Assembly (NCBI GenBank): GCA_002842215.1
Contig: PHCC01000017.1
Coordinates: 62,001 to 126,000, forward strand
DNA: 64,000 nt
Direction: 5' to 3'
DNA from: Betaproteobacteria bacterium HGW-Betaproteobacteria-9
Lineage (GTDB): Bacteria > Pseudomonadota > Gammaproteobacteria > Burkholderiales > Burkholderiaceae_C
Positions 6,381 to 56,149 of this stretch are shown piece after piece (the stretch's first letter is position 1; each line of letters begins with the position of its first letter). The position numbers and the translations under genes were made by a program. The notes below the pieces were generated by a model, which saw nothing but the letters and a program-made list of their open reading frames with translations, had not been told where the DNA came from and ran no database searches.

Positions 6381-6467
6381 CACCGTCGGGCCGGCTTTGC
6401 CGGACGACAGGTGTTGCCCCCTTGAGGGGGGATGCGGCTACGCGCAGCGAGCAAGCAACGGGGGTGG
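6381..6467 (-). repeat. 3'-end structured repeat, copy after hypX
   Basis: On the minus strand the unit begins 2 nt after the hypX stop with a C-run. It continues through a C5/G5 hairpin and ends with the conserved CCGGCAAAGCCGG hairpin. It separates hypX from hoxA. Confidence 0.75.
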
Positions 6468-8309
6468 TCATCTGTGTACAGCCAAATGCCGTGGTGTCCA
6501 GGCGTGCGGCTGCTTGTGCACGAAGTGGTGGCGCGCCACGTGGTAGCTGGGATCGAAGCCGTAGAAATTGCGGTGCATGCGCGCCAGTTCCTGTTCGCGG
6601 TAATGGGCCAGCGGACGATGGGCTTCGTCCTGCTCGCGCCGGGCCTGTTTGGCCTCTGACTCCCCGCTCTCATTGTAGGAGCCGGCCAGCGCCAGCGCGC
6701 GCTCCAGGCAACGCGATTCGAAGCCTTCACGCGACCCTTCATCGTTGTGGTCGATCAGGCCGATCCGCCGCGCTTCGGCAGCCAGCAGCGGCAGGCGCTG
6801 CGCCATCAGGTCTTTCGCGCCCGCCTCGCCCAGGCGGCGCGGCAGCAGGTAGGTCCAGTACTCGGAGCCATAGAGGTTGCCCATGTTCTTGTAGTGCGGG
6901 TTGAGCACCACGCTGCCGTGCGCCCACACCTGGTCGGCCGCCAGCGCGAGGAAGGCACCGCCCGCGCCCGCGTTGCCGCGCAGCACGCTGACCGTGAGGC
7001 GGTCGGTGGTCTGCAGCACCGCCAGCGCGACGTCGTTCATGGCCTGGATGTTGCGCCACGAGGCGTCGGCCGCGCTGTCGCCCGCGCGGTGGGCCGCGGC
7101 CTCGATGCTGTTGAGGTCGATGCCGTTGCTGAAGAAGCCCTCGCCGCCCATCAGCAGCAGCACCTGCGTGTCGCCCTCGCGCACCTGCAGCAGGGCGGCG
7201 CGCAGGCGTTCGCAGCGCGCGGTGGACATGGCGCCGTTGTAGAAATCGAAGCTCAGGCAGCCCACGCGGGCGCGTTCGGGGCCGTGTTCGGTGTAGCGCA
7301 GTTCGCCCCACTCGTCGGACGAGCGCTCCAGCGGCACCGGGCGCTGCGGCAGGTCCGCCGCTTCCTGCCCAAACAGCTCGGCCGCCACCTGCTTGAAGCT
7401 GCCCTGCGCAGACGGTGTGCCGGGCGGATCGGCGCGACGCGCCTGCCCGATCCAGACGCCACCGTCCACGGTGCGGCGCAGCAGCGCGCCGTCGCGCACG
7501 GCCAGAAGGTCGCCAGGCGCGGCACCTTCGAATTCGGCCATCGTCGAGGCACTGGCCGGGTGGGCATCGCCCAGGTAACAGGGCTGGCCCCAGAGCGCGT
7601 CGAGCACGCCGGGCTGGCCGTCGCCGCTGCGGATTTTGGCCAGTACGGTGGCGGTGCTGTCCTCGGCCCACTGGATCGCACGATCGTTCTGGCGCAGCAG
7701 GGGCTGCCATCCGCGCCCCCTTGCGTCTCGGGCTTCCCAGCCCGACCCGGGGCTCGCGCCGCTGCGCGGGTCGCTGCCCCCCGAGGGGGCTGATTCGCCT
7801 TGGGGCGGCCCGGCGGCGAATTGGAGCGGTGGCGCCTCGCGCTCGCCACCAGCGAAGCGTTGCACGGCGGCCAGCGTGGCCTGCAGCGCGGCTTGGGTGA
7901 CCTCGCGCCGGTACAGGCTGCCCTTGGTGGCCTCGCGCATGGGAAATGCCGCGTGCGCCCAGACCGGGCCGGCGTCGAAATCGCCGTTGGCCTGCAGCAC
8001 CGTCACGCCCCAGTGCGGCTCGCCGCGCCAGACCGCCCAGTCCAGGGCCGACGGCCCCTGGTCGCCCGGCGGGCCGGGGTGCACCACGAGGCAGGTCACG
8101 CGCTGCCACACCGTGGCCGGGATGCGGCGCTTGAGGAACGGCGCCAGCACCAGGTCGGGCCGGAACAGGGCCACCGCCTCTTCGGTCACGCTCTCGGCGA
8201 TGTCGAGCTCCACACTCAGGGTGTGGCCCGCCGCGCGCAGCTCGGCAAAAAGCCGCTGGCTGAGGCTGTTGAAGCTGTGGCAGAGCAGGAGGATGCGCAA
8301 GGGGTTCAT
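6468..8309 (-). CDS. hypX: HypX/HoxX, CO-ligand synthesis protein
   Basis: 613 residues. The N-terminal half resembles formyl-THF transferases, with HPGPPGDQG at 77-85. The C-terminal half is a crotonase fold with an oxyanion-hole-like GNAGAGGAF segment and a conserved tail rich in aromatic residues. HypX makes the CO ligand of the [NiFe] site from a one-carbon folate under air, which fits an aerobic hydrogen oxidiser. It is longer than the usual ~590 residues. The surplus is a low-complexity Gly/Ser/Pro/Arg stretch near residues 164-200 between the domains, encoded by repeat-like palindromic DNA. Both catalytic modules look complete, so function is probably retained. Confidence 0.93.
   Translation of the reverse strand: MNPLRILLLCHSFNSLSQRLFAELRAAGHTLSVELDIAESVTEEAVALFRPDLVLAPFLKRRIPATVWQRVTCLVVHPGPPGDQGPSALDWAVWRGEPHWGVTVLQANGDFDAGPVWAHAAFPMREATKGSLYRREVTQAALQATLAAVQRFAGGEREAPPLQFAAGPPQGESAPSGGSDPRSGASPGSGWEARDARGRGWQPLLRQNDRAIQWAEDSTATVLAKIRSGDGQPGVLDALWGQPCYLGDAHPASASTMAEFEGAAPGDLLAVRDGALLRRTVDGGVWIGQARRADPPGTPSAQGSFKQVAAELFGQEAADLPQRPVPLERSSDEWGELRYTEHGPERARVGCLSFDFYNGAMSTARCERLRAALLQVREGDTQVLLLMGGEGFFSNGIDLNSIEAAAHRAGDSAADASWRNIQAMNDVALAVLQTTDRLTVSVLRGNAGAGGAFLALAADQVWAHGSVVLNPHYKNMGNLYGSEYWTYLLPRRLGEAGAKDLMAQRLPLLAAEARRIGLIDHNDEGSREGFESRCLERALALAGSYNESGESEAKQARREQDEAHRPLAHYREQELARMHRNFYGFDPSYHVARHHFVHKQPHAWTPRHLAVHR
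7714..7815 (-). repeat. GC-rich palindromic segment captured inside hypX
   Basis: This stretch inside the hypX reading frame contains CCCCCTCGGGGGG and a GCGGC/GCCGC palindrome similar in style to the intergenic 3'-end repeats. It lacks the CCGGCAAAGCCGG hairpin. It is in frame and adds about 33 low-complexity residues. Relationship to the repeat family is inferred from appearance. Confidence 0.5.
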
Positions 8310-8327
8310 GGAAACGGGATCAGGGGG

Positions 8328-8876
8328 TCAGGTAGCGGGGCGCAGCGCCAGCAGCTCGCGCGCGGCCTGCTTGCGCCCCAGGTAGATGGCGAGTTTGGAC
8401 TCGATGCCGTCCAGCGCGGCGTTGAACTCGGCCACGCTGCGCGCGCCCAGCAGGGCCTGCGCTACGAGGGGTGTGTCGGGTCCGAAATGGTTGCCCAGAT
8501 AGGCCATGGCCTGGCGGCGCAGCACATCGAGGCCAGGGCCGACTGACACCGACTGCTCGGGCACAGCGGCCGGGACCGGGGCGGTCAGCGTCGCCGCGGT
8601 CGCGGTGGGTTCCACCGGCGGCTGCACGACCGGGGGCGGCGGTGACGGAGACGCCACAGGCGCAGCACGCACCACCACCGGCTCGATCAAACCCAGCGCC
8701 AGCAGCGTGTCCAGATGCCCCTGCAGCTGCGGCAGACCCCGCGCCATCAGGGCCGACACCGCATCGCTGCCATTGACCATGATCAGCACCGTGCGCGTGG
8801 CGGGCGACAGCCCCGCCTGACGCCGGGCGATCTCGGCCTTGCCGCTTTCGGTCTTCCGAAACACCTGACTCGACAT
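8328..8876 (-). CDS. Unknown protein with Pro-rich linker in the hyp operon
   Basis: 182 residues from the ATG at 8876; longer in-frame starts fall in the repeat downstream of hypE and were rejected. The N-terminal 65 residues look like a small helical, possibly winged-helix, domain (FRKTESGKAEI, then a VLIMVNGSDAV strand). Residues about 70-110 are a Pro/Ala/Val linker. The last 70 residues form a second helical domain. I recognise the layout from uncharacterised Burkholderiales proteins but cannot name a function. It sits between hypE and hypX, 18 nt upstream of hypX. It has no counterpart in the Cupriavidus hox/hyp order, so it may be an insertion into the operon. Confidence 0.8.
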   Translation of the reverse strand: MSSQVFRKTESGKAEIARRQAGLSPATRTVLIMVNGSDAVSALMARGLPQLQGHLDTLLALGLIEPVVVRAAPVASPSPPPPVVQPPVEPTATAATLTAPVPAAVPEQSVSVGPGLDVLRRQAMAYLGNHFGPDTPLVAQALLGARSVAEFNAALDGIESKLAIYLGRKQAARELLALRPAT

Positions 8877-8966
8877 GCCCCGTCTCCTCGTCTCTTTTAC
8901 AGGCTGGCGACAACAACGGTACAGACCCAAACTCCTGTCCGGAGCGCGTGCAGCGCCCCACCCAGG

Positions 8967-9063
8967 ACACCGCCGGGCCGGCTTTGCCGGACGGCTGGTG
9001 TCGCCCCCTGGGGGGTGACGCCGCAGGCGGCGCGGGGGGAAACAGTGCGCGCGGCGCGGGGGG
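8967..9063 (-). repeat. 3'-end structured repeat, copy after hypE
   Basis: On the minus strand six C residues follow the hypE stop with no gap. A second C-run then leads into stem 1 CGCCGC-ct-GCGGCG, stem 2 CCCCCC/GGGGGC and stem 3 CCGGCAAAGCCGG. Confidence 0.8.
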
Positions 9064-10176
9064 TCAACAAATCCTCGGCAGTTGCTCCCCACTGAGCCAG
9101 TCCACCACCCGCCGCCCGCCGAAGCGCGTGGTCATCTGCACGAAGTGGTGCGGGTCGGTCGTGACCTCGCCGATGCGCGCGGCGTCCTGCCCCAACGGGT
9201 GCGCGCGCATCGCGGCCAGCACCTCATCGGCGAATTCGGGCGCCACCACCGCGATCAGCTTGCCCTCGTTGGCCACGTAGAGCGGGTCCAGGCCGAGCAG
9301 TTCGCAGGCCGCGTCCACCTGCGGCTTCACGGGGATGGCCGCCTCCTGCAGCAGCATGCCCACGCCCGACTGGCGCGCCACCTCGTTGAGCGTGGTGGCA
9401 AGGCCGCCGCGCGTGGGGTCGCGCAGCACGCGCACTGCGCCCGGCGCGGCCGCGAGCATCGCCACCACCAGGGTGTGCAGCGCGGCGGTGTCGCTTTCAA
9501 TCGTGGTCTCGAAGGCCAGCGACTCGCGCTGCGACAGCACGGCAACGCCGTGGTCGCCGATGCTGCCGGACACCAACACCACGTCGCCCGGCCGCGCATT
9601 GCGCCCGCTGATGTGCACGCCCGGCGGCAGCACGCCGACGCCGGTGGTGCTGATGAACACGCCATCGCCCTTGCCCTGCTCCACCACCTTGGTGTCACCG
9701 GTGACCACGGGCACGCCGGTCTCGCGCGAGGCCGCGGCCATGCTCTGCACGATGCGCTGCAGGTCGACCAGCGGAAAGCCCTCTTCGATGATGAAGCTCG
9801 CGCTCAGGTAGAGCGGCTTCGCACCCGACATCGCCACGTCGTTGACCGTGCCGTGCACCGAAAGGCAGCCGATGTCGCCGCCCGGGAAGAACAGCGGCGA
9901 GATCACGTGGCCGTCGGTGGCCATCACCAGCCGCCCCTCGGCCGGGTCGAAGGCCGGCAGCGCCAGCACCGCGCCATCGTCGCCCTGGCGCAGGTAGTCG
10001 TTGTCGAAGGCGGCCAGGAACAGCTCCTCGATCAGCTGCGCCGCGGCCCTGCCGCCCGCACCGTGGCTCATGTCGATGCGGCCGTGTTTGATGTCGAGCG
10101 GCCGGATGTAGTTTTTCTTCACCGGCTTGGGGGCGGGCGCCTCGCCGGCACCGGCTTGGTCGTGTTCGGTTCTCAT
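9064..10176 (-). CDS. hypE: Hydrogenase maturation protein HypE
   Basis: 370 residues of the AIR-synthase/selenophosphate-synthetase fold (glycine-rich SHGAGGRAAAQL near 38-49, DDGAV near 66-70, GDTKVVEQGKGDG in the middle). The protein ends in PRIC: the C-terminal Cys370 is carbamoylated by HypF and then dehydrated with ATP to a thiocyanate, the source of the CN ligands. The start at 10176 overlaps the hypD stop as ATGA. It is the last standard hyp gene before the unknown protein and hypX. No missing motif is seen. Confidence 0.97.
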   Translation of the reverse strand: MRTEHDQAGAGEAPAPKPVKKNYIRPLDIKHGRIDMSHGAGGRAAAQLIEELFLAAFDNDYLRQGDDGAVLALPAFDPAEGRLVMATDGHVISPLFFPGGDIGCLSVHGTVNDVAMSGAKPLYLSASFIIEEGFPLVDLQRIVQSMAAASRETGVPVVTGDTKVVEQGKGDGVFISTTGVGVLPPGVHISGRNARPGDVVLVSGSIGDHGVAVLSQRESLAFETTIESDTAALHTLVVAMLAAAPGAVRVLRDPTRGGLATTLNEVARQSGVGMLLQEAAIPVKPQVDAACELLGLDPLYVANEGKLIAVVAPEFADEVLAAMRAHPLGQDAARIGEVTTDPHHFVQMTTRFGGRRVVDWLSGEQLPRIC

Positions 10177-11336
10177 GGGCTGACCTCTTCAGTGGTGGCG
10201 GCGGCGACGATGGGGATGTCGCGGAAACGGCCGTAGGTGTAATGCGCCGCGCAGGCGCCTTCGCTGGACACCATGCAGGAGCCGACCGGGTTTTCCGGCG
10301 TGCAGACGGTGCCGAAGATCTTGCAGTCGGTCGGCTTCTTCACACCGCGCAGGATGGCGCCGCATTCGCAGGCCTTGTTGTCGGCCACGGGCGTGTAGCT
10401 CAGGTCGAAGCGGCGCTCGGCATCGAAGGCGGCAAAGGCCTCGCGGATCTTGAGCGCGCTGTAGGGCACTTCGCCCAGACCGCGCCACTCGAAACTCGGG
10501 CGCAGCTCGAACACCTCGGACACCAGGGCCTGCGCCTTGAGGTTGCCCTCGGGCGTGACGGCGCGGGTGAACTCGTTTTCCACATGGGCGCGCCCCTCAT
10601 TGACCTGGCGCACCAGCATCAGGATCGCCTGCATCACGTCCAGCGGCTCGAAGCCAGCGATCACCACCGGCTTGCGGTATTCCTCGGCGAAGTGCTCGTA
10701 GGGCGCGGAGCCGATGACGATGCTCACATGCGCCGGGCCGATGAAGCCGTCGATGGGCACCGTGCCGAGCTGGCGCACCTCGGGCGATTCGAGGATGTGG
10801 GTGATGGCCGAGGGCGTGAGCACGTGGCAGCACAAGACGCTGAAGTTGGACAGGCCTTCGCGCGCCGCATCGCGGATGGCCAGCGCCGTGGGCGGCGTGG
10901 TGGTCTCGAAGCCGATGGCGAAGAACACCACCTCGCGCTGCGGGTTGGCGCGAGCGAGGGTCATGGCGTCGGCGGCGGAATAGACCATGCGGATGTCGCC
11001 GCCGCGCGCCTTGGCCTTGATGAGCGACAGGCTGTCCGACGCCGGCACGCGCATGGTGTCGCCGTAGGTGCAGACGATGGCGCCACGCTCCAGCGCGAGG
11101 CGGATCGCGAGGTCGATGCGACCGATGGGCAGCACGCAGACCGGGCAGCCCGGGCCGTGGATCATGCGCACGTTGGGCGGCAGCAGCTCCAGCACGCCGT
11201 AGCGGCTGATGGCGTGCGTGTGGCCGCCACAGAACTCCATGAAGCTGTAGCTGCGATCCGGGTGCGCTTCGGCGGCGATGCGCGCGCCGATCTGGCGGGC
11301 GAGGTCGCCGTCGCGGAATTCATCGATGTATTTCAT
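10173..11336 (-). CDS. hypD: Hydrogenase maturation protein HypD
   Basis: 387 residues from the ATG at 11336, which overlaps the hypC stop. The longer open frame upstream runs through hypC and hypF and was rejected. EFCGGHTH (Cys36) and GPGCPVC (Cys64, Cys67) are the conserved catalytic motifs. Further cysteines near the C-terminus (CECG, DCKIFGTVC, GSC) belong to the [4Fe-4S] cluster. HypD and HypC form the scaffold on which the Fe(CN)2CO unit is assembled. Length is normal for the family (about 370-390). Confidence 0.97.
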   Translation of the reverse strand: MKYIDEFRDGDLARQIGARIAAEAHPDRSYSFMEFCGGHTHAISRYGVLELLPPNVRMIHGPGCPVCVLPIGRIDLAIRLALERGAIVCTYGDTMRVPASDSLSLIKAKARGGDIRMVYSAADAMTLARANPQREVVFFAIGFETTTPPTALAIRDAAREGLSNFSVLCCHVLTPSAITHILESPEVRQLGTVPIDGFIGPAHVSIVIGSAPYEHFAEEYRKPVVIAGFEPLDVMQAILMLVRQVNEGRAHVENEFTRAVTPEGNLKAQALVSEVFELRPSFEWRGLGEVPYSALKIREAFAAFDAERRFDLSYTPVADNKACECGAILRGVKKPTDCKIFGTVCTPENPVGSCMVSSEGACAAHYTYGRFRDIPIVAAATTEEVSP

Positions 11337-11572
11337 GGCTGGACCTCCGCGCCGGCAACCGCCTGCATCTCTGCGAACAAGGCCAGCGTCCTCGCCGCCT
11401 CCTCCGGGTCGATGACGCCGATGGCGTGGCCCACGTGCACGATCACGTAGTCGCCCACCTGCACGTCGGCCACCAGGGCGATGGAAATTTCCTTGCGGAT
11501 GCCGCCGAGGTTGACCACAGCCTGGTCGTTGGGGCGCAACTCCACCAGGAGCGCGGGAATGGCTAGACACAT
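11333..11572 (-). CDS. hypC: Hydrogenase maturation chaperone HypC
   Basis: 79 residues starting MCLAIPALL; the conserved Cys2 binds the Fe(CN)2CO intermediate with HypD. The start at 11572 overlaps the 3' end of hypF by 10 bp, and the stop overlaps hypD as ATGA. An OB-fold core (VGDYVIVHVGHAIGVID) follows. The longer frame upstream is shadow of hypF. A second member of this family, HoxL, is encoded at 17791-18096. That matches hosts in which HypC serves all hydrogenases and HoxL serves the membrane-bound one. Confidence 0.96.
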   Translation of the reverse strand: MCLAIPALLVELRPNDQAVVNLGGIRKEISIALVADVQVGDYVIVHVGHAIGVIDPEEAARTLALFAEMQAVAGAEVQP

Positions 11573-12720
11573 GGTTCGGTTTCCTTTGACGAAATGCTCT
11601 GCGGGGTCGCCGCCAATTGCTGCGCTGCGACCCAGGCCTGGCCGATTGCGAGACCGGCGTCGCCGCAGCCTTTGTCGAGCGGCCGGTGCACACGCAACGC
11701 GGCTGCCTGCAGGCGCGTGGTCACGCGCTCGCGCAGGATGCGGTTGAAAAAGCAGCCGCCGCCGAAGCACACGTCGCGGCTGCCGCGTTCTTGGGCGGCC
11801 TGCGTGGCCCAGTCGGCCAGCGCGTCGGCCAGCGCGAGGTGGAAGCCCGCGGCGACGGCGTCCACGCCATCGGGGCCGGCGTCGAACAGCGCGGGCACGA
11901 GGCCGCGCAGGTCGAGGCGGTTCTGGGTGTCGATGACCGCGCCGGGCAGCGGCGCGGTTTGGGGATGTTGGGCGAGCCAGCGCGCGGCGGCGGCTTCGAG
12001 TGCGATGGCGGCTTGTGCTTCGTCGGCCTGGCGAACGCTCAGGCCCAACGCGCCGGCCACCGCGTCGAACCAGCGGCCGGTGCTGCTGGTGGCCGGGCAG
12101 TTCAGGTTGCGTGCCAGCATCTGCTGCACACCTGCGGCCACGGCCTCACCGACCTGCGGTGCGAAGCGTGGAGTGATTTGATCGGCCCGGCCGAGCGCAT
12201 GCAGCGCGCTCGCGGCCATGCGCCAGGGCTCGCGCGCGGCGCGGTCGCCGCCGGGCAAAGCGAGTGGCATCAGGTGCCCCAGGCGCTGCCACTGCTCGCC
12301 GTCCGCCCACAGCAGTTCACCGCCCCAGGCTTGCCCGTCTGTGCCCAGGCCAACACCATCGAGCGCGAGGCCGATGACAGGGCCTTCGATGCGGTGTTCG
12401 GCGACCACGGCAGCGATGTGCGCGTGGTGGTGCTGCACGCCGATGGCGGGCACGCCCAGCGAACTGGCGAGCTGCACCGCAAGCTGGGTGCTGAAGAAGT
12501 CGGGGTGCAGGTCGTGCGCCACCGCCGCGATGGGTGCGCCGTGGCCGGCCAGCAGGGCCTCCACCGAGGCTTCGAGCGCGGCGCAGGCTGCCGGGTCGCT
12601 GAGGTCGCCGTGCACCGTCGACCAGACCGGCGCGCCATCCACCAGCAGACAGGCGGCGTTTTTCAGCCAGGCGCCGCAGGCGAGCACGGTGGGCAAAGGC
12701 GCTGTGTTCATGGCGTGCAT
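11563..12720 (-). CDS. hypF: Short carbamoyltransferase HypF (HypF1 type)
   Basis: 385 residues, about half of a standard HypF (about 750). The acylphosphatase, Cys4 zinc-finger and YrdC-like N-terminal domains are absent; only the Kae1-like carbamoyltransferase half remains. It keeps the metal-binding VQHHHAH motif near residue 94 and a nucleotide-binding GGGCFFN motif near 322. Cupriavidus HypF1 is similarly short (about 394) and was reported functional, so this is a lineage form rather than a fresh truncation. Start at 12720, or 12711 (second Met); the gene lies 4 nt after hypB. A full-length HypF elsewhere in the genome may provide carbamoyl-adenylate. Confidence 0.93.
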   Translation of the reverse strand: MHAMNTAPLPTVLACGAWLKNAACLLVDGAPVWSTVHGDLSDPAACAALEASVEALLAGHGAPIAAVAHDLHPDFFSTQLAVQLASSLGVPAIGVQHHHAHIAAVVAEHRIEGPVIGLALDGVGLGTDGQAWGGELLWADGEQWQRLGHLMPLALPGGDRAAREPWRMAASALHALGRADQITPRFAPQVGEAVAAGVQQMLARNLNCPATSSTGRWFDAVAGALGLSVRQADEAQAAIALEAAAARWLAQHPQTAPLPGAVIDTQNRLDLRGLVPALFDAGPDGVDAVAAGFHLALADALADWATQAAQERGSRDVCFGGGCFFNRILRERVTTRLQAAALRVHRPLDKGCGDAGLAIGQAWVAAQQLAATPQSISSKETEPCV

Positions 12721-12724
12721 CGGG

Positions 12725-13717: not shown

Positions 13718-13779
13718 ATTGGTTCTCCTTTGCTGTGTTCATCGAAGCACCGTCCGAAGGAAGGGCAGTTGCCCAGTCG

Positions 13780-13873
13780 CACCGCGGAACCGGCTCTGCC
13801 GGGCCGCAGGAGCGGTCCCCCTCCCGCCAAAGGCGAGAGAGGGGGAAGACGCGAAGCGGCGCAGGGGGTGCTT
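13780..13873 (-). repeat. 3'-end structured repeat, copy after hypA
   Basis: The unit begins 13 nt after the hypA stop and carries CCGGCAGAGCCGG, a loop variant of the conserved hairpin. The middle stem is replaced by a longer CCCCCTCTC/GAGAGGGGG-like palindrome. It lies between hypA and hypB. Confidence 0.7.
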
Positions 13874-19139: not shown

Positions 19140-19180
19140 GACAAAGACCCGAAGTTGGAGCGAAGTGCCTGAATCAAGGG

Positions 19181-19252
19181 CGCCGAGGAACCGGCTTTGC
19201 CGGGCCACCAGCGCCGCCCCCTGGGGGGTGACGCCGAAGGCGGCGCGGGGGG
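19181..19252 (-). repeat. 3'-end structured repeat, copy after hoxZ
   Basis: Begins about 10 nt after the hoxZ stop. Stem 1 is CGCC-ttc-GGCG, stem 2 CCCCCC/GGGGGC, stem 3 CCGGCAAAGCCGG. A near-canonical copy. Confidence 0.8.
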
Positions 19253-20637: not shown

Positions 20638-20712
20638 GTGTTTCTCCTCGTATGGGTTCAAAACGGTTCACAGGTCCATGGACATTGCGAGCGCAACGGG
20701 TCTTGTCCAGAG

Positions 20713-20789
20713 CACCCGTGGAACCGGCTTTGCCGGGCCACCAGGTGCGTCCCCCCGTGGGGGGAAGACGCGAAGCGGCGCAGGGGGGT
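20713..20789 (-). repeat. 3'-end structured repeat, copy after hoxG
   Basis: Begins 4-5 nt after the hoxG stop: C6 run, TGCGCCGC-tt-CGCG stem, CCCCCC/GGGGGG stem and CCGGCAAAGCCGG. It separates the structural genes hoxKG from hupE and hoxZ. Confidence 0.8.
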
Positions 20790-24070: not shown

Positions 24071-24243
24071 CTGTGATCTCTGGCATCTCTTGGGGACGCT
24101 GAAGCAATATTTTCTGGTTGGACTGGGTTGTCTCCTCGGTCCCCCGCGGTCACCAGCGGCAAGGCGCTGTGTGCGAGTGGTGTGACTGTAATACTTCGCA
24201 CCAGCGCTGTGCATCGGGAGTTTCCCTCGGTTCTTTGCATGGG

Positions 24244-24259
24244 TGGCACAGGATGTGCT
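24244..24259 (+). promoter_or_regulatory. Sigma-54 promoter candidate of the amtB pseudogene
   Basis: TGGCACAGGATGTGCT has a perfect TGGCAC -24 element and GG-N10-GC spacing. It lies 33 nt upstream of the ATG at 24292. NtrC-type nitrogen control is the usual regulation of amtB genes. Confidence 0.75.
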
Positions 24260-24291
24260 CTGTGGCGGAGGTCGTTGGAAAAGGTAACAAG

Positions 24292-25536
24292 ATGCACCAA
24301 AACCGTAGATCCCCTGGATCCGTGGCGGCTGGGCTGGCTCTCGCCATCCCCTCGCTGACTTGTGCGCAGACCGCACCCCCCGTGGCCACCAGCCCCGCAG
24401 CCGACACAGCGGCCACGCTGCCCGGCCCGGCGCTCGCCGCCATCAGCACCCTCAGCGGGGCCGACACCGCCTGGCTCATGGTGTCCACCGCGCTCGTGCT
24501 GCTCATGACGCTGCCGGGCATTGCGCTCTTTTATGGCGGCATGGTGCGCCGCCTCAACGTGATCAACACCATGGCCAGCGTGGTCGGCATCGCGGCCGTC
24601 GGTGAGCCACATCGCGCCGCACGTGCCCGAGTCGGTCTTTGCCATGTTCCAGCTCACCTTCGCCATCATCACCTGTGCCCTGGTGGTGGGCGCGCTGGTG
24701 GAGCGCATGCACTTCGGCGCCCTGCTGCTGTTCGCCGGCCTGTGGCTGCTGCTGGTGTACGCGCCCGTGGCCCACTGGGTCTGGGAGCCGGGCGGCTGGC
24801 TGGCCCAGCTCGGTGCGCTGGACTTTGCCGGCGGCGCCGTGGTGCACATCAACGCCGGCGCCGCCGCGCTGGTCTGCGCCTACGCCCTCGGCCCGCGCCA
24901 GGGCTACGGGCGCGAGCCTTTCATCCCCTTCAACCTGGGCCTGACCATGGCCGGCACCGGCCTGCTCTGGGTCGGCTGGTTCGGCTTCAACGCCGGCTCG
25001 GCGCTCGCCGCCGACGGGCGCGCCGGGCTGGCGCTGGCGGTGACCCACATCGCCGCTGCGGCGGGCGCGCTGTCGTGGATGGCCGCCGAATGGCTGGCGC
25101 GCAAGCGCGCCTCGCTGCTCGGCCTGTGTTCCGGCGTGGTGGCCGGGCTGGTGGCCATCACGCCGGCCGCGGGCTTCGTCACGCTGCGCAGCGCGCTGGT
25201 CATCGGGCTGGTGGCGGGTGCGGTCTGCTACTGGGGCGCCACGGGCCTGAAGCGCCGCCTGCGCGCCGACGATTCGCTCGACGTGTTCGGTGTGCACGGC
25301 GTGGGCGGCCTGGTGGGCGCGCTGCTCACCGGCCTGCTGGCCGACCCGGCCATCGCTGGCGTCGAGGGCAGCGTGCTGACGCAGCTGATCGCCTGCGCCG
25401 CCGTGCTGGCCTACAGCCTGGTCTGACCGGCGCGGTGCTGTGGATCACCTCGCGGGTGGCGCGCCTGCGCGTGCACGAGGTAGACGAACGCGCCGGGCTT
25501 GATCTGTCGCTGCACAACGAACAGCTCGGGCATTGA
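24292..25536 (+). pseudogene. amtB: Decayed ammonium transporter AmtB
   Basis: The 5' segment (24292 to about 24600) encodes a signal peptide and TM1 with LFYGGMVRR. Homology then jumps to the next frame at 24602 ([19 protein letters not shown]), which ends at a stop at 25426. The cytosolic tail ([16 protein letters not shown]) resumes in the first frame to 25536. Against the intact amtB at 62512-63966, about 40 residues covering the second membrane helix and following loop are missing at the first break. The second break looks like a one-base loss. The first frame stays open throughout, so an annotator could call a false 414-residue protein. The remaining segments keep VHINAG and [10 protein letters not shown] motifs, showing relatively recent decay. 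Confidence 0.85.
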
Positions 25537-25544
25537 GATGGAAC

Positions 25545-25712
25545 ACCCCCCGCGCCGCTTCGCGTCACCCCCCTCAAGGGGGGCTGAGGGCCGCGGCTCC
25601 AAGCCTGTCTGCGCAGGCTTGGACGGCCCGAAGAAGCCTCGCCTCTGGCAGGGCTGCGGCCTGCAAGGCGCACTGGCCGTCCGGCAAAGCCGGCCCGGCG
25701 GTGCCCTGGGGT
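25545..25712 (+). repeat. 3'-end structured repeat, extended copy after amtB pseudogene
   Basis: Starts about 9 nt after the stop at 25536, in the sense direction. C6 run, CGCCGC-tt-CGCG stem and CCCCCC/GGGGGG stem come first. About 90 bp of extra palindromic sequence (AAGCCTGTCTGCGCAGGCTT) follow, before CCGGCAAAGCCGG at 25681. Confidence 0.78.
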
Positions 25713-26207: not shown

Positions 26208-26297
26208 AACGCGCTCTGTAGCACGGCATGGCGAAACTGCATCAGTTTTCCATGCCGCTGGAGCGCCACCCCGGCGCATGAAACGGTGCAGACCAGG

Positions 26298-26369
26298 GCG
26301 CCGCCGGGCCGGCTTTGCCGGACGGCCGTGCCGCCCCCTTGAGGGGATAGCGCGAAGCGCTGCGGGGGT
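26298..26369 (-). repeat. 3'-end structured repeat, copy after GMC oxidoreductase
   Basis: Begins 4 nt after the stop. Stem 1 is AGCGC-ttc-GCGCT, stem 2 CCCC-tcaa-GGGG, stem 3 CCGGCAAAGCCGG. Confidence 0.8.
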
Positions 26370-46721: not shown

Positions 46722-46830
46722 ATCACCCCTTGCGGCCTTCGGAGCGAAAGGCCTGAACCCAGGTTGCGGTGGAACCGGGTTCGCCGGGTCACATCACATC
46801 GCCCCCTTCAAAAGGACACGCGCAGCGCGA
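46722..46830 (-). repeat. 3'-end structured repeat, distal copy after csoR
   Basis: A diverged member with a CCCGGCGAACCCGG version of stem 3 and a CCTTTTGAAGG-type middle. It lies directly downstream of the second copy, so two units stand in tandem. The 314 bp between the TSUP and CsoR genes hold only these repeats. Confidence 0.6.
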
Positions 46831-46871
46831 CTGGCGCGCGCGATCTCCGGAGCGCCGTGTCCGAACCCAGA

Positions 46872-46946
46872 ACGCGGCGGAACTGGCTTCGCCAGGCCGC
46901 ACCGCGTTGCCCCCTGGAGGGGGTCGCGCACAGCGCGGCGGGGGTG
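46872..46946 (-). repeat. 3'-end structured repeat, proximal copy after csoR
   Basis: Begins 9 nt after the stop. Stem 1 is CGCGC-tgt-GCGCG, stem 2 CCCCCTCCAGGGGG-like, and stem 3 CTGGCGAAGCCAG. The CTGG/CCAG arms change together relative to CCGG/CCGG. Confidence 0.75.
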
Positions 46947-48321: not shown

Positions 48322-48390
48322 GGTGCTATCCGTGCGAAGACGAAGACGTTGCGAGCGAGGGTGCCCGGAGCGCGGGCCCCGGCCCAGCAC

Positions 48391-48464
48391 ACGCCGCGGA
48401 TCCGGCTCTGCCGGTCCAAGGGCGTGGTCCCCCTGGGGGGAAGCCGCGCAGCGGCGCAGGGGGG
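48391..48464 (-). repeat. 3'-end structured repeat, copy after DUF2892 gene
   Basis: Begins 3 nt after the stop. Stem 1 is GCCGC-tgc-GCGGC, stem 2 CCCCCC/GGGGG, stem 3 CCGGCAGAGCCGG. It lies within the efflux operon, before the TDT gene. Confidence 0.8.
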
Positions 48465-48656: not shown

Positions 48657-51600
48657 TCAGGTGGCAGTGGCCGCCAGCGCTTCGTATTTGCGGCGGTACA
48701 CCGCGTAATACAAGACCGGGATCACGACAAGAGTGAGCAAGGTCGACACCGCGATGCCGAAGATCAGCGACACGGCCAGGCCGTTGAAGATCGGGTCATC
48801 GAGGATGAAGAAGGCGCCCATCATGGCGGCCAGACCGGTCAGCGCGATGGGCTGCGCGCGCACCGCGGCGGACTGCACCACGGCCTCGGCAAAGGGCACG
48901 CCGCGCTGGGTTTCCAGCTCGATGAAGTCCACCAGCAGGATGGAGTTGCGCACGATGATGCCGGCCAGCGCGATCATGCCGATCATGCTGGTCGCGGTGT
49001 ACTGCGCGTTCAGCAGCGCGTGGCCGGGCATCACGCCGATGATGGTCAGCGGGATCGGCGCCATGATGATCAGCGGCGTGAGGTAGCTCTTGAACTGCGC
49101 CACCACCAGCAGGTAGATCAGGATCAGGCCGACGCCGTAGGCAGCGCCCATGTCGCGGAAGGTTTCAAAGGTGATCTGCCACTCACCGTCCCATTTGACG
49201 GCGTACTGGCGGTACGGGTCCTTGGGCTGGCTGATCCAGTACTCGCCCAGTTCACCGGTGTTGGGCAGCGCTGCCTTGTCCATGGACGAACGGATGCCGA
49301 ACAGGCCGTAGAGCGGCGAGTCGAGCGAGCCGGCCATGTCACCGAACACATAGGTCACAGGCAGCATGTCCTTGGTGTAGCGCGGCTGGTCGATCACACC
49401 GCGTTCCACCGTCACCAGCTCGGACAGCGGCACCATGGCGCCGTTCGCCGCCTTCAGGGGCAGCGCGAGCAGCGCGTCCAGACCGACCTGCTGGTCCAGC
49501 GGCAGCTGCAGGCGCACAGGCACGGCGAACTTGGCGTGGCCATCGTGCAGGTAGGCGGCGTCCGAGCCCGAGAGCGCGGCATACACCGTTTGCGCGATCA
49601 CCTGCACCGGAATACCGAGCGATTCGGCGCGCTGGCGCTGGATGCGCAGGAAGGCGCGTGGCGCGTGTTCTTTGAGCGAGGTGTCCACGCCGACAATGTC
49701 AGGCGTGTTTTTGTAGGCTTGGGCCACACGCAGGGCGAGTTCGGCGCGGCCTTCCTGGTCGGGGCCATAGACCTCGGCCACGATGGGCGACATCACCGGC
49801 GGGCCGGGCGGCACTTCCACTACCTTGACGCGCGCGCCGTGGCTGGCCGCGATCTGCTCCAGCTCGGGGCGGTGGCGTTGCGCGATGGCGTGGCTCTGCT
49901 CGCTGCGGTCGTGCGCGTCGATCAGGTTGACCTGCAGGTCGCCGCCTTCGGCTTCGGCGCGCAGGTAGTACTGGCGCACCAGGCCGTTGAAGGTGATGGG
50001 GCTGGCGGTGCCGGCGTAGCCCTGCACGTTGGCGACTTCGGGCTGGGCGGCGAGGTAGGCCGTCATGTCCTGCAGCGCGGCGGTCGTGCCTTCGAGCGGC
50101 GTGCCGGCGGGCATGTCCACCACCACCTGGTACTCGCTCTTGTTGTCAAAGGGCAGCATCTTGAGCACCACGCCCAGGAACGAGTTGGGCACCAGCGCCA
50201 GGCTCACCGACAGCAGCAGCGCCCCGCCGATGCCGGCGGCCAGCAGCCAGCGCTTTTTAGCGCTCTGCAGCAGCGGCGTGAGGGTGCGGGTGAACGTACT
50301 CTGCAGCGTGCGCGTGATCTTGCCCGGGCCGTGCGCGGCGTGGCCTTCGCCCGTTTTCGTCAGCTTGAGCGCGAGCCAGGGCGTGACGGTGAAGGCGATG
50401 GCCAGCGAGATCGCCATGCCCATGCTGGCGTTGATCGGGATCGGACTCATGTACGGGCCCATCAGGCCGCTCACGAAGGCCATGGGCAGCAGCGCCGCGA
50501 TCACGGTGAAGGTGGCGAGGATGGTGGGGCCACCCACTTCATCGACCGCGCGCGGGATGATCACGGAGAGCGGCACGTCGGGCGTGAGCATGCGGTGGCG
50601 GTGGATGTTTTCCACCACCACGATGGCGTCGTCCACCAGGATGCCGATGGAGAAGATGAGCGCGAACAGCGACACGCGGTTGAGCGTGAAGCCCCAGGCC
50701 CAGCTGGCGAACAGCGTGGCCGTGAGCGTGAGGATCACGGCTGCGCCAACGATCACCGCCTCGCGCCGGCCCAGCGCCAGACCCACCAGGATGATCACGC
50801 TGCCGGTGGCAAAGATCAGCTTCTGGATCAGCTTGTTGGCCTTGGCGGCGGCGGTTTCGCCGTAGTCGCGCGTGATGGCAACGTTCACATCGTCCGGGAT
50901 CACCGTGTTCTTCAGGTTGTCCAGCCGCTCGCGCACGCCGGCGGCCACGTCCACCGCGTTTTCACCGGGTTTCTTGGTCACGGTGATGGTCACGGCCGGG
51001 TGGTTCTGGCCTTGTTGACCGGCGTGGGCGGCATCGGCGGCACCGGGCGTGAACCACACGTAGCGCTGCGGCAGCTGGGCACCGGCTTCCACCCGCGCGA
51101 CCTCGCGCAGGTAGATCGGGCGGCCATTGCTGACGCCGACCACGATGTCACCCACGTCATTGGCGTTCTGCAGGAACTCACCGGTTTCCACCGACAGCAT
51201 GCCCGGCTCGCCCGCGGCAGGGCTGGGGTTGACCACCGAACCCGAGGGCATGGCCTGGTTGGCCGAAGCAATCGCGCCCTGCAGCGCCTGCACGCTCACG
51301 CCGCGCTCGCGCAGCTTGGCGGGCTCCAGCCACACATGCACCGCGCGACCCGGGCCACCGATGGTGACCACCTCGCGTGTGCCGGGCACGCGCTTGAGTT
51401 CGGTCTCGACCGCGTGCGCCACGCGCTCCAGATCGAGTGCGCTCTGCGCATCTTTCGTCCACAGCGTGGCGGCGAGCACCGGCACGTCGTCGATGCCCTT
51501 GGGCTTGACGATCGGCGTCAGCACACCCAGGCCCTGCGGCAGCCAGTCCTGGTTGGCGTTGAGCACGTCATACAGGCGCACCAGCGCTTCGGTACGCGGC

Positions 51601-51941
51601 ACGCCGACCTTGAACTGCACCGTCAGCACCGCCACGCCGGGGCGCGCCACCGAATAGCTGTGTTCGATGCCCTGGATCTGCGAGAGCACGTGTTCGGCCG
51701 GCGCGGCGACCATCTTCTCCACGTCGGCACTCGATGCGCCGGGGAACGGGATGATCACGTTGGCCATGGTCACGTTGATCTGCGGCTCTTCCTCGCGCGG
51801 CGTGACCAGCACGGCGAACAGGCCCAGCAGCAGCGCGACCAGCGCCAGCAACGGCGTGATGGCGTTGGACTGGAAGGCCCGTGCCACGGAACCCGAGAAG
51901 CCGAGCTTCTCTGGCATGGATGCATCGTTGGGGTGGCTCAT
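48657..51941 (-). CDS. RND efflux permease
   Basis: 1094 residues, a typical RND length. Twelve membrane helices and two large periplasmic loops. TM4 carries [20 protein letters not shown] with the paired acidic residues of proton relay, and [27 protein letters not shown] follows. This is closer to HAE/AcrB-type than to CzcA, so the substrate (drug, metal or sulfur compound) is uncertain. It starts 10 nt after the adaptor gene. No outer-membrane TolC-type gene is in the operon, so a shared channel is needed. Confidence 0.93.
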   Translation of the reverse strand: [1094 protein letters not shown]

Positions 51942-51950
51942 GCTGGCCCC

Positions 51951-53138
51951 TTATTTCGCAGCAGGCTGGGCACCGGCCAGACCGGCGCGCACCGGGTCCA
52001 GCGCCACGCGGTCGCCGGCTTTCAGGCCAGCCAGAACCTCGACGCCCGCCGCGCCGTGCGAGGCGCCGGTGCGCACCGCGCGCAGTGCGAAGCCCGCGGG
52101 CTGGCCCTCGCCGCGGGTGGCCACCACGTACACACCGGTGAGTTCGCCGCGGCGCAGCAGCGCCGACCCGGGCACCACCAGGCGCTGGTTGTCGGGCTGC
52201 GCCGTGCCGCCAACAAAGCGCACGCGCACCTGGCGACCGGGCACCTGGCTGGCGCCGTCGGCCGCGCTCAGGTCGAGCCGCCATTCGACCGTCTGCGACA
52301 CCGGGTCTGCGGCGGGCAGGCTGGTCTTGCTCGCGGGCACCACCCATTGGCTGGTCCCCGGCAGCTGCACCTCGACGCGCTGCGCCTGCTGGGCCAGTGT
52401 CTGCATCGAGGCCGGCACGTGCACCACGGCGCGGATCGGCTGCGGCGCGTAGACCGTCAGCACCGGGGTCCCGGGCATGGCCAGCCCACCGGCTTCGGCG
52501 TGCGTCTGCAGCACCCAGCCGTCATACGGTGCGGTCAGGCGCGTGAAACCCTGGGCCACGCTGGCCTGCGTCTGGCCGGCGCGGGCGGCGGCGGCGGCGG
52601 CCTGGGCAGCCCGGTACTGGGCCTGCGCCGTGTCCAGCGCGGCCTGGGCCAGGAAGCCCTGGGCACGGAGATCGCGTGAGCGTTCGTAGGCCGCCTTGGC
52701 GTTGGCCAGGTTGGCATCGGCCTGGGCAAAGCCCGCCTGCGCCTGCGCCACACCGGCCTGGGTGGCACGGTCGTCGATCACGGCCAGCACCTGACCGGCC
52801 TTGACGCGATCGCCGGCCTTGACCGACAGTGTGGCGATGCGGCCCGAGGCCTGGGCCGAGAGCACGCTCTGGCGCACGGCCTGCAGGCTGCCGTCCAGCT
52901 CCAGGCCGGCGCCCACAGCCTGCGCGCCCAGCGTCATCACCGGCACCTGGGGCCCGGCGACGGCCTGCGCCTCATCAGCCGCCCTCACCGACCCCGCCAT
53001 CAGCACCGCCGCACCGGCGAGCAGGCTGAGCGACAGGGCGCCGAGCACGAGCCGGCGCTGGGCAGGCTGCCACTGCGCCAGCGCCAGGACGGTGGTTTTG
53101 AGGGGCGTTGAAACGGGTCGGGTGAAACGGGCGGGCAT
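51951..53138 (-). CDS. RND efflux periplasmic adaptor (membrane fusion protein)
   Basis: 395 residues. A signal peptide or signal anchor (residues about 28-53, SLLAGAAVLMAGSVRA) is followed by a lipoyl-like domain (SGRIATLSVKAGDRVKAGQVLAVID), an Ala/Gln-rich coiled-coil hairpin (about 125-190) and a beta-barrel domain. It links the RND pump to an outer-membrane channel. First gene of the operon, with AGGAGA 8 nt upstream and a CsoR-type operator inside its promoter. Confidence 0.94.
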   Translation of the reverse strand: MPARFTRPVSTPLKTTVLALAQWQPAQRRLVLGALSLSLLAGAAVLMAGSVRAADEAQAVAGPQVPVMTLGAQAVGAGLELDGSLQAVRQSVLSAQASGRIATLSVKAGDRVKAGQVLAVIDDRATQAGVAQAQAGFAQADANLANAKAAYERSRDLRAQGFLAQAALDTAQAQYRAAQAAAAAARAGQTQASVAQGFTRLTAPYDGWVLQTHAEAGGLAMPGTPVLTVYAPQPIRAVVHVPASMQTLAQQAQRVEVQLPGTSQWVVPASKTSLPAADPVSQTVEWRLDLSAADGASQVPGRQVRVRFVGGTAQPDNQRLVVPGSALLRRGELTGVYVVATRGEGQPAGFALRAVRTGASHGAAGVEVLAGLKAGDRVALDPVRAGLAGAQPAAK

Positions 53139-53160
53139 GGCTTTCTCCTATACGGGTCGC

Positions 53161-53189
53161 AGTATACACATATACCCCCAGGGGTACAA
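53161..53189 (-). promoter_or_regulatory. Efflux-operon promoter with embedded CsoR-type operator
   Basis: On the minus strand -35 TTGTAC (53189-53184) and -10 TATACT (53166-53161) are exactly 17 bp apart. The palindrome TACCCC-N2-GGGGTA (53173-53186) covers the spacer and the edge of the -35, matching the CsoR/CstR operator pattern. A repressor bound here would block polymerase. The start point is predicted near 53154. Confidence 0.82.
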
Positions 53190-53286
53190 TAGCAACCGAA
53201 TCCCAAAACAGGGATATTGCGCCTTCGCCTGGACCGCCCTGCCCTTCAAAGACTGAGAGCCTCAGCCTTTCAGCCGGCCACGCCGA

Positions 53287-54417
53287 TCACGGCGGAGGCG
53301 AAAACGGCACCCGCGGCGCCACCGCGCACAACAACTCGTAAGCGATCGTGCCCGCCGAAGCCGCCACCTCGTCCGCCGCCAGCACCGCCCCCGAAGCCGA
53401 GCGGCCCCACAGCACCACCTCGGTCCCGACCCCGGCGGGCACGCCCGCCGCGTCCAGCGGTGACAGGTCCACCGCGAGCATGTCCATGCTGACGCGGCCC
53501 AGCACCCGGGTGCGCACGCCCGCCACCAGCACCGGCGTGCCGGTGGGCGCGTGGCGCGGGTAACCGTCCGCGTAGCCGCAGGCCACCACGCCCACCCGCA
53601 TGGGGGCTTCGGCGGCAAAGGCCGAGCCGTAGCCCACGGTGTCGCCCGGCTGCAGCTGCTGCACGCCGATAAGCCGGCTGGCGAGGGTCATCGTGGGCTG
53701 CAGGTCCCAGCCCGCGGCGGTGTTTTCCGGGTAGTCGGGCGCGCAGCCGTACAGGGCGATGCCTTCGCGAACCCAGTCGCCGGCCAGCGTCGTCACGCCG
53801 TCGCCGCGCAGCGGGGTGCTGGCATGGCGCAGCAGGGCCGCGCTGTTGCACAGCGTGCGCTCGCCCGGCAGGTCGGCGGTGGCGGCCTCGAACGCGGCCA
53901 CCTGGTGGGCAATGCCGCGTGGACCGTCGGCGTCACTGAAGTGCGTCATGAGCGAGATCTCTTCCACCTGCGGCAGCGCGTTCAGGCGCGCCCAGGCGGC
54001 GCGGAAGGCGGTGGGTGTGAAGCCGAGGCGGTTCATGCCGCTGTTGAGCTTGAGGAACACGCGCTGCGGCACCTGCGTCTTGTGGGCGGCGAGCCAGTCG
54101 ATCTGCTCTGTGCAGTGCACGGCGTGCCACAGGTGCAGGCGCGAGCACAGTTCCAGATCGCGCGGTTCGAACACGCCTTCAAGCAACAGGATGGGGCCGC
54201 GCCAGTCCAGCGCGCGCAGGCGTTCGGCCTCGGCCAGATCGAGCAGCGCAAAGCCGTCGGCCGAACGCAGCGCGTCAAAGCAGCGCTCGATGCCGTGGCC
54301 ATACGCATTGGCCTTGACCACCGCCCAGACCCGCGCATCGGGCGCACGCACGCGGGCCTGGTTCAGGTTGTGGCGCAAGGCTTCGGGGTGAACGGTGGCG
54401 AGGATCGGGCGGGGCAT
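53287..54417 (-). CDS. alr: Alanine racemase
   Basis: 376 residues from the ATG at 54417. The PLP-binding lysine is Lys35 in [10 protein letters not shown]. The second catalytic base Tyr lies in [10 protein letters not shown], and [10 protein letters not shown] is the conserved C-terminal segment. It interconverts L- and D-alanine for peptidoglycan in the cytoplasm. Upstream longer frames are not needed. It diverges from lplT. Confidence 0.96.
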
Positions 54418-54643
54418 GGGCAGACAGTCGAGGATTGGGGTGGGCAGAGGGCCTTGCGGGCCAGGACCGGACACTGCGCAGGCGCAGACAGCGTGAACGC
54501 GTCATTCGCACGCTTTCGCATTACGAACTGTCACAAATGGCGTGCTATAACCGCCGTCACAGGAGACCGGTCGCAGGACTTTCGCACAAAACAGCCGCAT
54601 CGGACCAGGTGCAACCCATGACCTGGCACACAAAATCACCCCC

Positions 54644-55927
54644 ATGAAGCGCGGCTTCTACACCATCATGACGGCGCAGTTTTTCAGCTCCCTGGCTGAC
54701 AACGCGCTGTTCGTGGCCGCCATCGAGTTGCTGCGTTCGCGCAGCGCGCCCGAGTGGCAAAGTGCCGCCCTGGTGCCGCTGTTCGCCTTGTTTTACGTGG
54801 TGTTGGCGCCTTTTGTGGGGGCGTTTGCCGACGCGAAGCCCAAGGGGCAGGTCATGTTCATCAGCAACGCCATCAAGGTGGCGGGCTGTCTGCTGATGCT
54901 GGTGGGTGTGCACCCACTGCTGGCCTACACGCTGGTGGGACTGGGTGCTGCAGCCTACTCACCCGCCAAGTACGGCATCCTCACCGAGCTGCTGCCGCCT
55001 TCGCAACTGGTCAAGGCCAACGGCTGGATCGAGGGCCTGACCATCGCCTCCATCATCCTGGGCGTGCTGCTGGGCGGGCAACTCGTCGCACCCTGGATCT
55101 CGTCGCGCCTGCTGGCGATCGATCTGCCAGGTCTGCACACCGGCATCTCGCACCCGGCCGAAGCAGCGATCGGCGCACTGGTGCTCGTCTATGCCCTCGC
55201 GGCCTGGTTCAACACCCGCATCCCGCTGACCGGCGTGACACCCCGCCACATGCCCAAGAACCCGCTGGCCCTGCTGCCCGACTTCTGGCGCTGCAACGGC
55301 CGGCTCTGGCGCGACCACCTGGGCCAGATCTCGCTCTCGACCACCACGCTGTTCTGGGGCGTCTCGGGCAACCTGCGCTACATCGTGCTGGCCTGGGCTG
55401 GCGCGGCGCTGGGTTATAGCACCACGCAGGCCTCCAGCCTGGTCGGCGTGGTCGCGCTGGGCACCGCCGTGGGCGCCGTGGTGGCTTCGCTGCGCATGCG
55501 GCTGGACCAGGCCACGCGGGTGATGCCCCTGGGCATTGCCATGGGCGTGCTGGTGATCTGCATGAACTTCATCGACAACGTCTGGATCGCCGCGCCGTTT
55601 CTGGTGCTGCTGGGTGGTCTGGGTGGTTTTCTGGTGGTGCCGATGAACGCCCTGCTGCAGCACCGCGGCCACAATCTGATGGGCGCCGGCCGCTCCATCG
55701 CCGTGCAGAACTTCAACGAACAGGCCTGCATCCTCAGCCTCGGCGCGCTCTACAGCTTCTCCACGGCCGCCGGTCTGTCGGCCTTCGCCGCCATCACCGC
55801 GTTTGGTGTCGTGGTCGCGGGTTTCATGTGGCTGATCATGAAGTGGCACCAGCACAACCAGCGCGCACACCCGCACGAGCTCGAACGCCTGATGGAAATC
55901 GCGCGCCGCGACGACCTTCATGGATAA
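54644..55927 (+). CDS. lplT: Lysophospholipid transporter LplT
   Basis: 427 residues, about 12 membrane helices of the major facilitator fold. The start MKRGFYTIMTAQFFSSLADNALF and the segments AAAYSPAKYGILTELLP and FLVVPMNALLQHRG are diagnostic for LplT. It flips lysophospholipids inward for reacylation. The usual partner acyltransferase/synthetase (aas) is not adjacent. A structured repeat begins with no gap after the stop. Confidence 0.93.
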   Translation: MKRGFYTIMTAQFFSSLADNALFVAAIELLRSRSAPEWQSAALVPLFALFYVVLAPFVGAFADAKPKGQVMFISNAIKVAGCLLMLVGVHPLLAYTLVGLGAAAYSPAKYGILTELLPPSQLVKANGWIEGLTIASIILGVLLGGQLVAPWISSRLLAIDLPGLHTGISHPAEAAIGALVLVYALAAWFNTRIPLTGVTPRHMPKNPLALLPDFWRCNGRLWRDHLGQISLSTTTLFWGVSGNLRYIVLAWAGAALGYSTTQASSLVGVVALGTAVGAVVASLRMRLDQATRVMPLGIAMGVLVICMNFIDNVWIAAPFLVLLGGLGGFLVVPMNALLQHRGHNLMGAGRSIAVQNFNEQACILSLGALYSFSTAAGLSAFAAITAFGVVVAGFMWLIMKWHQHNQRAHPHELERLMEIARRDDLHG

Positions 55928-56010
55928 CCCCCCGCGCCGCGCCTAAGGGCGCGTCACCCCCCTGCTGGGGGCGATGCGAGTGGCCCGGCAAAGCCGGTTC
56001 CCCCGCATCC
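55928..56010 (+). repeat. 3'-end structured repeat, copy after lplT
   Basis: Follows the lplT stop with no spacing: C6 run, stem 1 GCGCC-taa-GGGCGC, stem 2 CCCCC-tgct-GGGGG, stem 3 CCGGCAAAGCCGG. Confidence 0.82.
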
Positions 56011-56070
56011 TGGATGAGGGCACGCACGCCGGAGAAGCAATGGGTGATGCGCAGGGAAGTCGATCCCAGG

Positions 56071-56149
56071 GCACCGCGGAACCGGCTTTGCCGGGCCGCC
56101 AGTGCCGCCCCCTGGGGGGTGACGCGCCTTTAGGCGCGGCGCGGGGGGT
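56071..56149 (-). repeat. 3'-end structured repeat, copy after the receiver-like gene
   Basis: Opposite orientation to the copy after lplT, beginning about 2-3 nt after the stop of the convergent gene. Stem 1 is GCGCC-taaa-GGCGC, stem 2 CCCCCC/GGGGGC, stem 3 CCGGCAAAGCCGG. Confidence 0.82.

Follow-up and report, generated by a model that had tools for sequence, protein, structure and literature searches.

The closest described relatives of the repeat analysed here are the Betaproteobacterial repeat element (BRE) of Hot et al. 2011 and, at a greater distance, the repetitive extragenic palindromic (REP) sequences of Escherichia coli. Two copies of BRE lie beside lexA in Bordetella pertussis; BREs are about 75–91 bp long, G+C-rich, mostly intergenic and sometimes tandem, they are found in Bordetella and Comamonadaceae, and their function was left open by their discoverers (PMC3110155). 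Some E. coli REPs are reported to lie no more than 15 nt from a stop codon (PMC12306157). Our subject is a family of hairpin-rich repeats in a 64,000-nucleotide stretch (the window) of Betaproteobacteria bacterium HGW-Betaproteobacteria-9 (contig PHCC01000017.1, positions 62,001 to 126,000), for which a first-pass annotation had listed twelve copies and proposed an RNA-level 3'-end element. That annotation expected ordinary mobile REP-like repeats to lack an orientation bias, a stop-codon bias or covariation. We find that most copies stand in sense almost directly behind stop codons and that they are nevertheless gained and lost rapidly within the genus.

Copies lie in sense behind stop codons

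A covariance model (R1; core 76 nt) was built from nine of the window copies. In the whole genome (5.26 Mb) it has at least 150 matches, with all 150 scored candidates matching. In a sample of 864 kb, made up of the window and 40 stretches from four contigs, there are 81 matches at E ≤ 0.1, 73 of them of at least 40 bits; the latter number would correspond to about 440 copies genome-wide if they are evenly spread. Chance is excluded as the source of the copies outside the R1 seeds. The counts per copy use the 73 matches of at least 40 bits and leave out the 8 weaker ones; the counts per gene end use matches of at least 28 bits and include those 8.

Sixty-six of the 73 copies stand in sense behind a gene, 48 of them between co-directional and 18 between convergent genes. 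The other seven comprise four outside genes behind a gene on the opposite strand and three inside called genes, a class that depends on the dicodon gene caller built for this analysis; 70 of the 73 thus lie outside called genes. In six of the seven exceptions an open frame of 94–298 codons ends 2–13 nt upstream of the copy, although frames like these often arise by chance in DNA so rich in G+C, and the coding score is negative in five. The sixth frame is a MipA gene absent from the gene calls; Pfam matches none of the other five. The ratio of sense to antisense copies in tandem junctions is 48:2 by the gene calls and 49:1 with the MipA gene added.

Counted per gene end, 58 of 69 copies start between −1 and +16 nt from the stop codon, against 16.0 expected from uniform placement in the present gap. 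When about 110 nt of the gap is taken as insert, 17 of the 26 ends with an ancestral gap above 60 nt still have the copy near the stop, against 3.8 expected; at ancestral gaps of 30 nt or less the near-stop spacing is trivial (22 of 22, 20.0 expected).

The repeat is also a common feature of gene ends. It is present at 69 of the 268 ends with a gap above 100 nt, about a quarter, and so marks more of them than do U-tract sites, which a crude scan called at 30. Its frequency is alike at tandem (50 of 198) and convergent ends (19 of 70). The suggestion from the window that genes with U-tract terminators carry no copy is roughly true genome-wide, but 3 of the 69 repeat-bearing ends have a U-tract site as well. 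In 15 of 50 tandem cases the next start lies 20–49 nt past the core, which leaves little room for a promoter. Codon use is more typical in copy-bearing genes (0.62 vs 0.52 per codon, p 7e-7; 60 copy-bearing genes compared with 162 copy-less genes with a gap above 100 nt).

The same placement recurs in other genomes

In a second genome of the same genus (G049), 800 kb contained ten R1 matches at E ≤ 0.1. With three of 28.7–30.0 bits left out, all seven remaining copies, each of at least 50 bits, are in sense and 2–12 nt past a stop codon. At loci in 15 further genomes, picked for their high score (20 copies from three genera of the same family and 12 single copies, one from each of the named genomes with a match that are listed below), 31 of 32 copies are in sense, 29 of them within 18 nt. 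A genome from another family (G098), whose LexA is nearest to those of Achromobacter and Bordetella, gave 51 R1 matches, of which six partial ones below 35 bits were left out. Of the 45 copies that remain, 40 have the sense orientation, often within tandem arrays. The sense copy closest to the stop lies 4–25 nt behind it in 14 of 20 stretches. Two of these arrays are regularly spaced: five copies at 129-nt spacing (L072, 2064–2653) and four copies at 86-nt spacing (L073, 2380–2714). The biases in orientation and in distance from the stop thus extend well beyond the window.

Within the host family, R1 matches at least 80 of 120 sampled genomes (at least 79 of 119 genera), and in an order-wide sample at least 3 of 120 (the genome under study, G049 and G098). 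Both samples scored at most 40 candidates per genome and used stricter filters, such that the counts are lower bounds and absences are not firm. Matches were found in 12 of 20 named genomes (Pelomonas, Acidovorax, a Comamonadaceae metagenome-assembled genome, two Roseateles, five Bordetella and two Achromobacter) and none in the other 8; the named hosts include Bordetella petrii, Achromobacter xylosoxidans, Acidovorax sp. 210-6 and Comamonadaceae SCNH_6. In g202, the genus to which the B. hinzii LexA belongs, ten genomes were searched and one has a single match. The lexA neighbourhoods at 80 named loci contain no R1 copy.

Anatomy and covariation

In the sense strand the stop codon is followed, after 0–16 nt, by a run of 4–6 C, stem 1, a hairpin 2 formed by a second C-run paired with a G-run, and a long hairpin 3. 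The tip of hairpin 3 is mostly CCGGC-AAA-GCCGG, after which often come CTGG and then a less conserved tail. The G+C content of the copies is 0.64–0.84, and some are alike over about 150 nt.

In the R1 alignment of all 81 copies, 96.0% of cells pair, compared with 83.3% after shuffling. Of the 19 pairs, 13 show changes in both partners, in 189 cells vs 48.5 shuffled, and both arms of the large hairpin covary strongly; the alignment was fitted to R1, so these counts lean towards that model. Stem 1 is unpaired in R1; in 58 of the 73 copies four or all of its five pairs are formed, in one of two registers and with many arm types, which bears out the earlier observation that its arms change together. 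A frequent arm pair, GCCGC/GCGTC, seen in 10 copies, is mismatched at one position. The G098 copies differ so little from one another that their covariation is weak. Covariation is thus found, as the first-pass annotation had anticipated, although pairing and covariation counts fail to tell RNA from DNA.

A search of the window against Rfam at gathering cut-offs found tRNA only, and at E ≤ 1 the interval 55.9–56.2 kb, which holds two copies, had no match. The first-pass annotation knew of no named family; a named sibling does exist in BRE (PMC3110155).

Copies turn over rapidly

Comparison of our sample with G049 yielded 92 good ortholog pairs. Twelve of the gene ends carry the repeat in the genome under study, and none of the 12 shares it in G049. 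These ends represent 11 junctions, as two of them face each other at the lplT pair, and some of them (C20_83, C20_217) have a different neighbour gene in G049. In 11 of the 12 the G049 gap is −4 to 33 nt, too short for the repeat, compared with 120–342 nt in the genome under study. In the twelfth, a convergent junction, the G049 gap is occupied by a BRE-type repeat that is oriented in sense with the facing gene. At 61 same-type ends without the repeat the change was far smaller, with a median difference of 11 nt. Among 30 lplT loci searched (flanks of up to 1.5 kb; 182 genomes with a match), copies occur only behind lplT of the genome under study. Thus, the repeat family is gained and lost fast, probably through movement, and presumably by gain in the line under study rather than loss in G049. 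In a reciprocal test of 19 G049 elements of both families, no pair with the corresponding genes met the ortholog criteria.

Other features of the copies bear on how they spread. The median nearest-neighbour identity among copies in the genome is 84%, so there has been no very recent burst. The inverted pair at lplT recurs elsewhere as a 222-nt unit with 85% identity, and a composite copy, with a similar long insert between hairpins 2 and 3, is found in three places (window 25547–25708; L054, 12892–13051; L059, 16394–16553; the latter two on contig 20). One subfamily has terminal inverted repeats. We also considered whether the repeat supplies the stop codon. This is not a rule: in most of the 12 ortholog pairs the two proteins terminate at the same position or no more than about three codons apart, and the protein C20_201 ends about 8 codons early relative to its G049 ortholog.

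Possible roles of the repeat

A strict position at the stop codon despite fast turnover within a genus poses a real puzzle as to how the repeat finds and keeps its place. The rule calls either for an RNA function at the ends of genes that is under strong selection or for an insertion step able to see translation stops. We tentatively favour, at somewhat short of even confidence, a reading in which the repeat is a small, non-autonomous, probably mobile sibling of BRE that is kept as a putative REP-like RNA barrier between cistrons and at 3' ends. The repeat would be transcribed together with the upstream gene, and its G+C-rich hairpins near the stop would, like REPs, cap the upstream message against 3'–5' exonucleases once the transcript has ended or been cut further downstream. 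The hairpins would not efficiently keep transcription from entering the next gene, and copies landing elsewhere or in the opposite orientation would be lost. The RNA-level 3'-end element of the first-pass annotation survives here in its sense, stop-codon and covariation biases, but not as something fixed at particular genes. The mobile repeat that it named as the alternative also seems to be right, but the lack of bias expected of ordinary REP-like repeats is not seen.

Alternatively, the repeat could divide transcription units from one another as a terminator, whether Rho-linked or of a non-canonical intrinsic type. It is found at about a quarter of wide gene ends, convergent as well as tandem, it seldom coincides with a U-tract site and its 5' part is C-rich. 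However, base composition shows no U-richness over the 45 nt that follow the core (copies of at least 60 bits), convergent ends are not enriched over tandem ends, and in 15 of 50 tandem cases the next start lies close behind. In addition, one co-directional stretch of the window holds copies at HoxX-like, hypE, hypA/hypB-like, cytochrome b and large subunit/hupE-like genes. Hydrogenase gene clusters are generally cotranscribed, as may also hold for this genome, and copies between co-directional genes of this kind speak against an efficient terminator. Based on the hydrogenase context, the lack of a U-rich stretch, the equal frequency at tandem and convergent ends and the codon use, we prefer a REP-like barrier to an efficient terminator with modest confidence, and consider a terminator role doubtful. 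Still less probable is a brake on translation termination, in which the folded repeat, lying right against the ribosome at the stop, reduces output or blocks reinitiation, as reported for E. coli REPs. The distance window of the repeat is the same, and there is the REP precedent within 15 nt of the stop (PMC12306157), but the copies favour genes with typical codon use, which would not be expected to want a brake.

Several observations weigh against the barrier that we favour. Insertion into very short ancestral gaps accounts for part of the stop spacing. Where gaps are larger, an antisense copy ought to do no harm, which makes selection alone a strained account of orientation, and a barrier does not fully explain why antisense copies are nearly lacking from tandem junctions. 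That pattern is better explained by targeted insertion, albeit without a known agent. Folding-energy and G–U tests on the 73 copies gave no clear support for selection on the sense RNA rather than on DNA: the antisense RNA folds better than the sense RNA in 61 copies, the shuffle z-scores of folding are about equal (−1.60 and −1.56), and G–U exceeds A–C by 57 to 28, yet 40 of the 57 G–U come from two pairs. A further account is a selfish element, inserted in a set orientation at gene 3' ends by a transposase or an RNA-linked step and of no gain to the host, which we regard as rather unlikely overall but as the most probable of the remaining accounts. Such an element would fit the unshared ortholog ends with their very short G049 gaps, the inverted pairs and composites that recur as units, the terminal inverted repeats of one subfamily and the tandem arrays in G098. 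However, no transposase is known to recognise a stop codon, and none could be tied to the repeat. The one family examined, Y1_Tnp, matches 88 of the 120 sampled family genomes, mostly once each, and shows no association with the repeat (61 genomes with both, 19 with the repeat only, 27 with Y1_Tnp only, 13 with neither; p 0.38), such that 19 of the 80 repeat-bearing genomes have no Y1_Tnp match. The single Y1_Tnp match of the genome under study is in a 238-codon open frame (L071), and its 3.3-kb locus contains no copy. The covarying stem arms also weigh against this account, although covariation would be expected as well of a hairpin that acts as DNA.

Copies in the window

The repeat is present at all twelve places listed by the first-pass annotation (Table 1), with the copy given at 25545 being composite and that at 46722, which had been described as standing in tandem, being partial. 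Ten of the twelve have R1 scores of 64.6–84.4 bits, nine of them being the R1 seeds and the tenth the copy at 6381. For the eleven copies other than 46722, the R1 core starts 14, 25, 10, 11, 7, 10, 9, 9, 5, 1 and 4 nt after the stop codon. The reported start at 0–13 nt therefore applies to the C-run, which begins before the core at 6381 (about 4 nt after the stop) and 8967 (about 0 nt), but not to the R1 core, with its offsets of 1–25 nt. The CTGG/CCAG change described in the hairpin after csoR is present at the tip of that copy.

Table 1. Copies of the repeat in the window, with their covariance-model scores
Copy	Coordinates	Strand	R1 score and features
Behind HoxX-like gene (6468–8309, −)	6376..6467	−	64.6 bits for 6376–6453; variant stem 1; C-run about 4 nt past stop
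Behind hypE	8963..9063	−	79.0 bits for 8963–9038; extra partial C-run directly after stop
Between hypA and hypB-like gene	13775..13867	−	69.6 bits; long hairpin-2 loop
Behind hydrogenase b-type cytochrome gene, before helix-turn-helix gene	19176..19251	−	84.4 bits
Between hydrogenase large subunit gene and hupE-like gene	20709..20786	−	83.5 bits
Composite, behind apparently broken amtB	25547..25708	+	29.7 + 35.3 bits; insert between hairpins 2 and 3
Core behind GMC oxidoreductase (choline dehydrogenase-like) gene	26294..26368	−	72.1 bits; terminal inverted repeats of the ATGAAAC/GTTTCAT kind
Partial tandem copy (the 46722 copy)	46760..46836	−	32.5 bits, best match
Behind csoR-like gene (Pfam PF02583)	46868..46944	−	77.3 bits; CTGG/CCAG tip
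Behind small YgaP-like gene (Pfam PF11127)	48387..48462	−	75.1 bits
Behind lplT, half of inverted pair	55929..56012	+	73.0 bits; absent in G049
Behind convergent gene 56152–57267, other half of inverted pair	56067..56147	−	79.3 bits

The amtB-type ammonium transporter gene upstream of the composite copy (24118–25536) looks broken. Its match spans model positions 87–368 of 406, the frame seems to shift near 25430, and there is a homologous stretch at 62.7–63.4 kb.

Relation to intrinsic terminators, REP and BRE

The repeat shares with intrinsic terminators a G+C-rich hairpin behind a stop codon, but it has no U-tract, is a repeated sequence and occurs between genes of an apparent operon. A conserved GTAG/GTGG tetranucleotide is a feature of REPs. 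It is not conserved in the R1 family, in which the bases at that place covary. As with REPs and bacterial interspersed mosaic elements (BIMEs), the copies are numerous extragenic palindromes, and some REPs share the proximity to the stop (within 15 nt; PMC12306157). The R1 family differs in being longer, strongly oriented and not associated with Y1_Tnp. The idea of a REP driven by a REP-associated tyrosine transposase (RAYT) is rejected on account of this lack of association and of the lack of a copy at the Y1_Tnp locus of the genome under study.

The comparison with BRE depends on a two-copy 82-nt tandem repeat beside lexA in a genome whose LexA is 89% identical to that of B. hinzii (G340). 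We infer that this pair is BRE. The pair (in L195) scores only 15 bits with R1. A detection model (R2) was made from the pair and its homologues in G049 and the genome under study; its automatic structure is one nested fold rather than three hairpins, and it serves detection only. Its best score on a window copy of the R1 family is 25 bits. On these scores, and to the extent that the lexA-side pair is BRE, the R1 family is ruled out as being identical to BRE by sequence.

R2 has 29 matches in 1.66 Mb, seeds included, about half of which include or overlap the seeds. We examined 24, leaving out one truncated match, three weak ones and one on a window copy of the R1 family. Fifteen of the 24 are in sense at −4 to +17 nt from a stop codon, and four more are in sense at 30–167 nt as later copies of arrays. 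Another four fall within called genes: three of these, each from the genome under study, are antisense, and one lies over the 3' end of a same-strand gene. The last of the 24 is antisense. One BRE-type repeat is in the window itself, at 7741–7822 (+; R2 67.9 bits), antisense inside the HoxX-like gene 6468–8309, where it spans approximately codons 163–190 between the two Pfam domains. Table 3 of the BRE report lists no locus between divergent genes, which fits a sense stop-codon rule, and no statement of such a rule for BRE was found in the consulted parts of that report (PMC3110155) or in the literature searched, which was mainly open-access.

With its similar layout but different sequence, the R1 family appears to be a new sibling of the known BRE family, with the same positional rule in both. 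A bolder proposal, which we consider improbable, is that the two form a superfamily with mRNA-guided mobility that places new sense copies at translation stops in two bacterial families; the route might, for example, pass through RNA or be coupled to the termination of translation. The same rule for the inferred BRE would give the BRE family a testable role. The sequence and third hairpin of the R1 family are unlike those of the inferred BRE, but the two agree in length (about 75–91 bp), tandem arrays, high G+C content, a mostly extragenic location and hosts in Bordetella and Comamonadaceae. They also agree in the layout of C-run, stem 1, C6/G6 hairpin and third hairpin, on our own reading of the inferred BRE, and in the sense placement at the stop codon found here for it.

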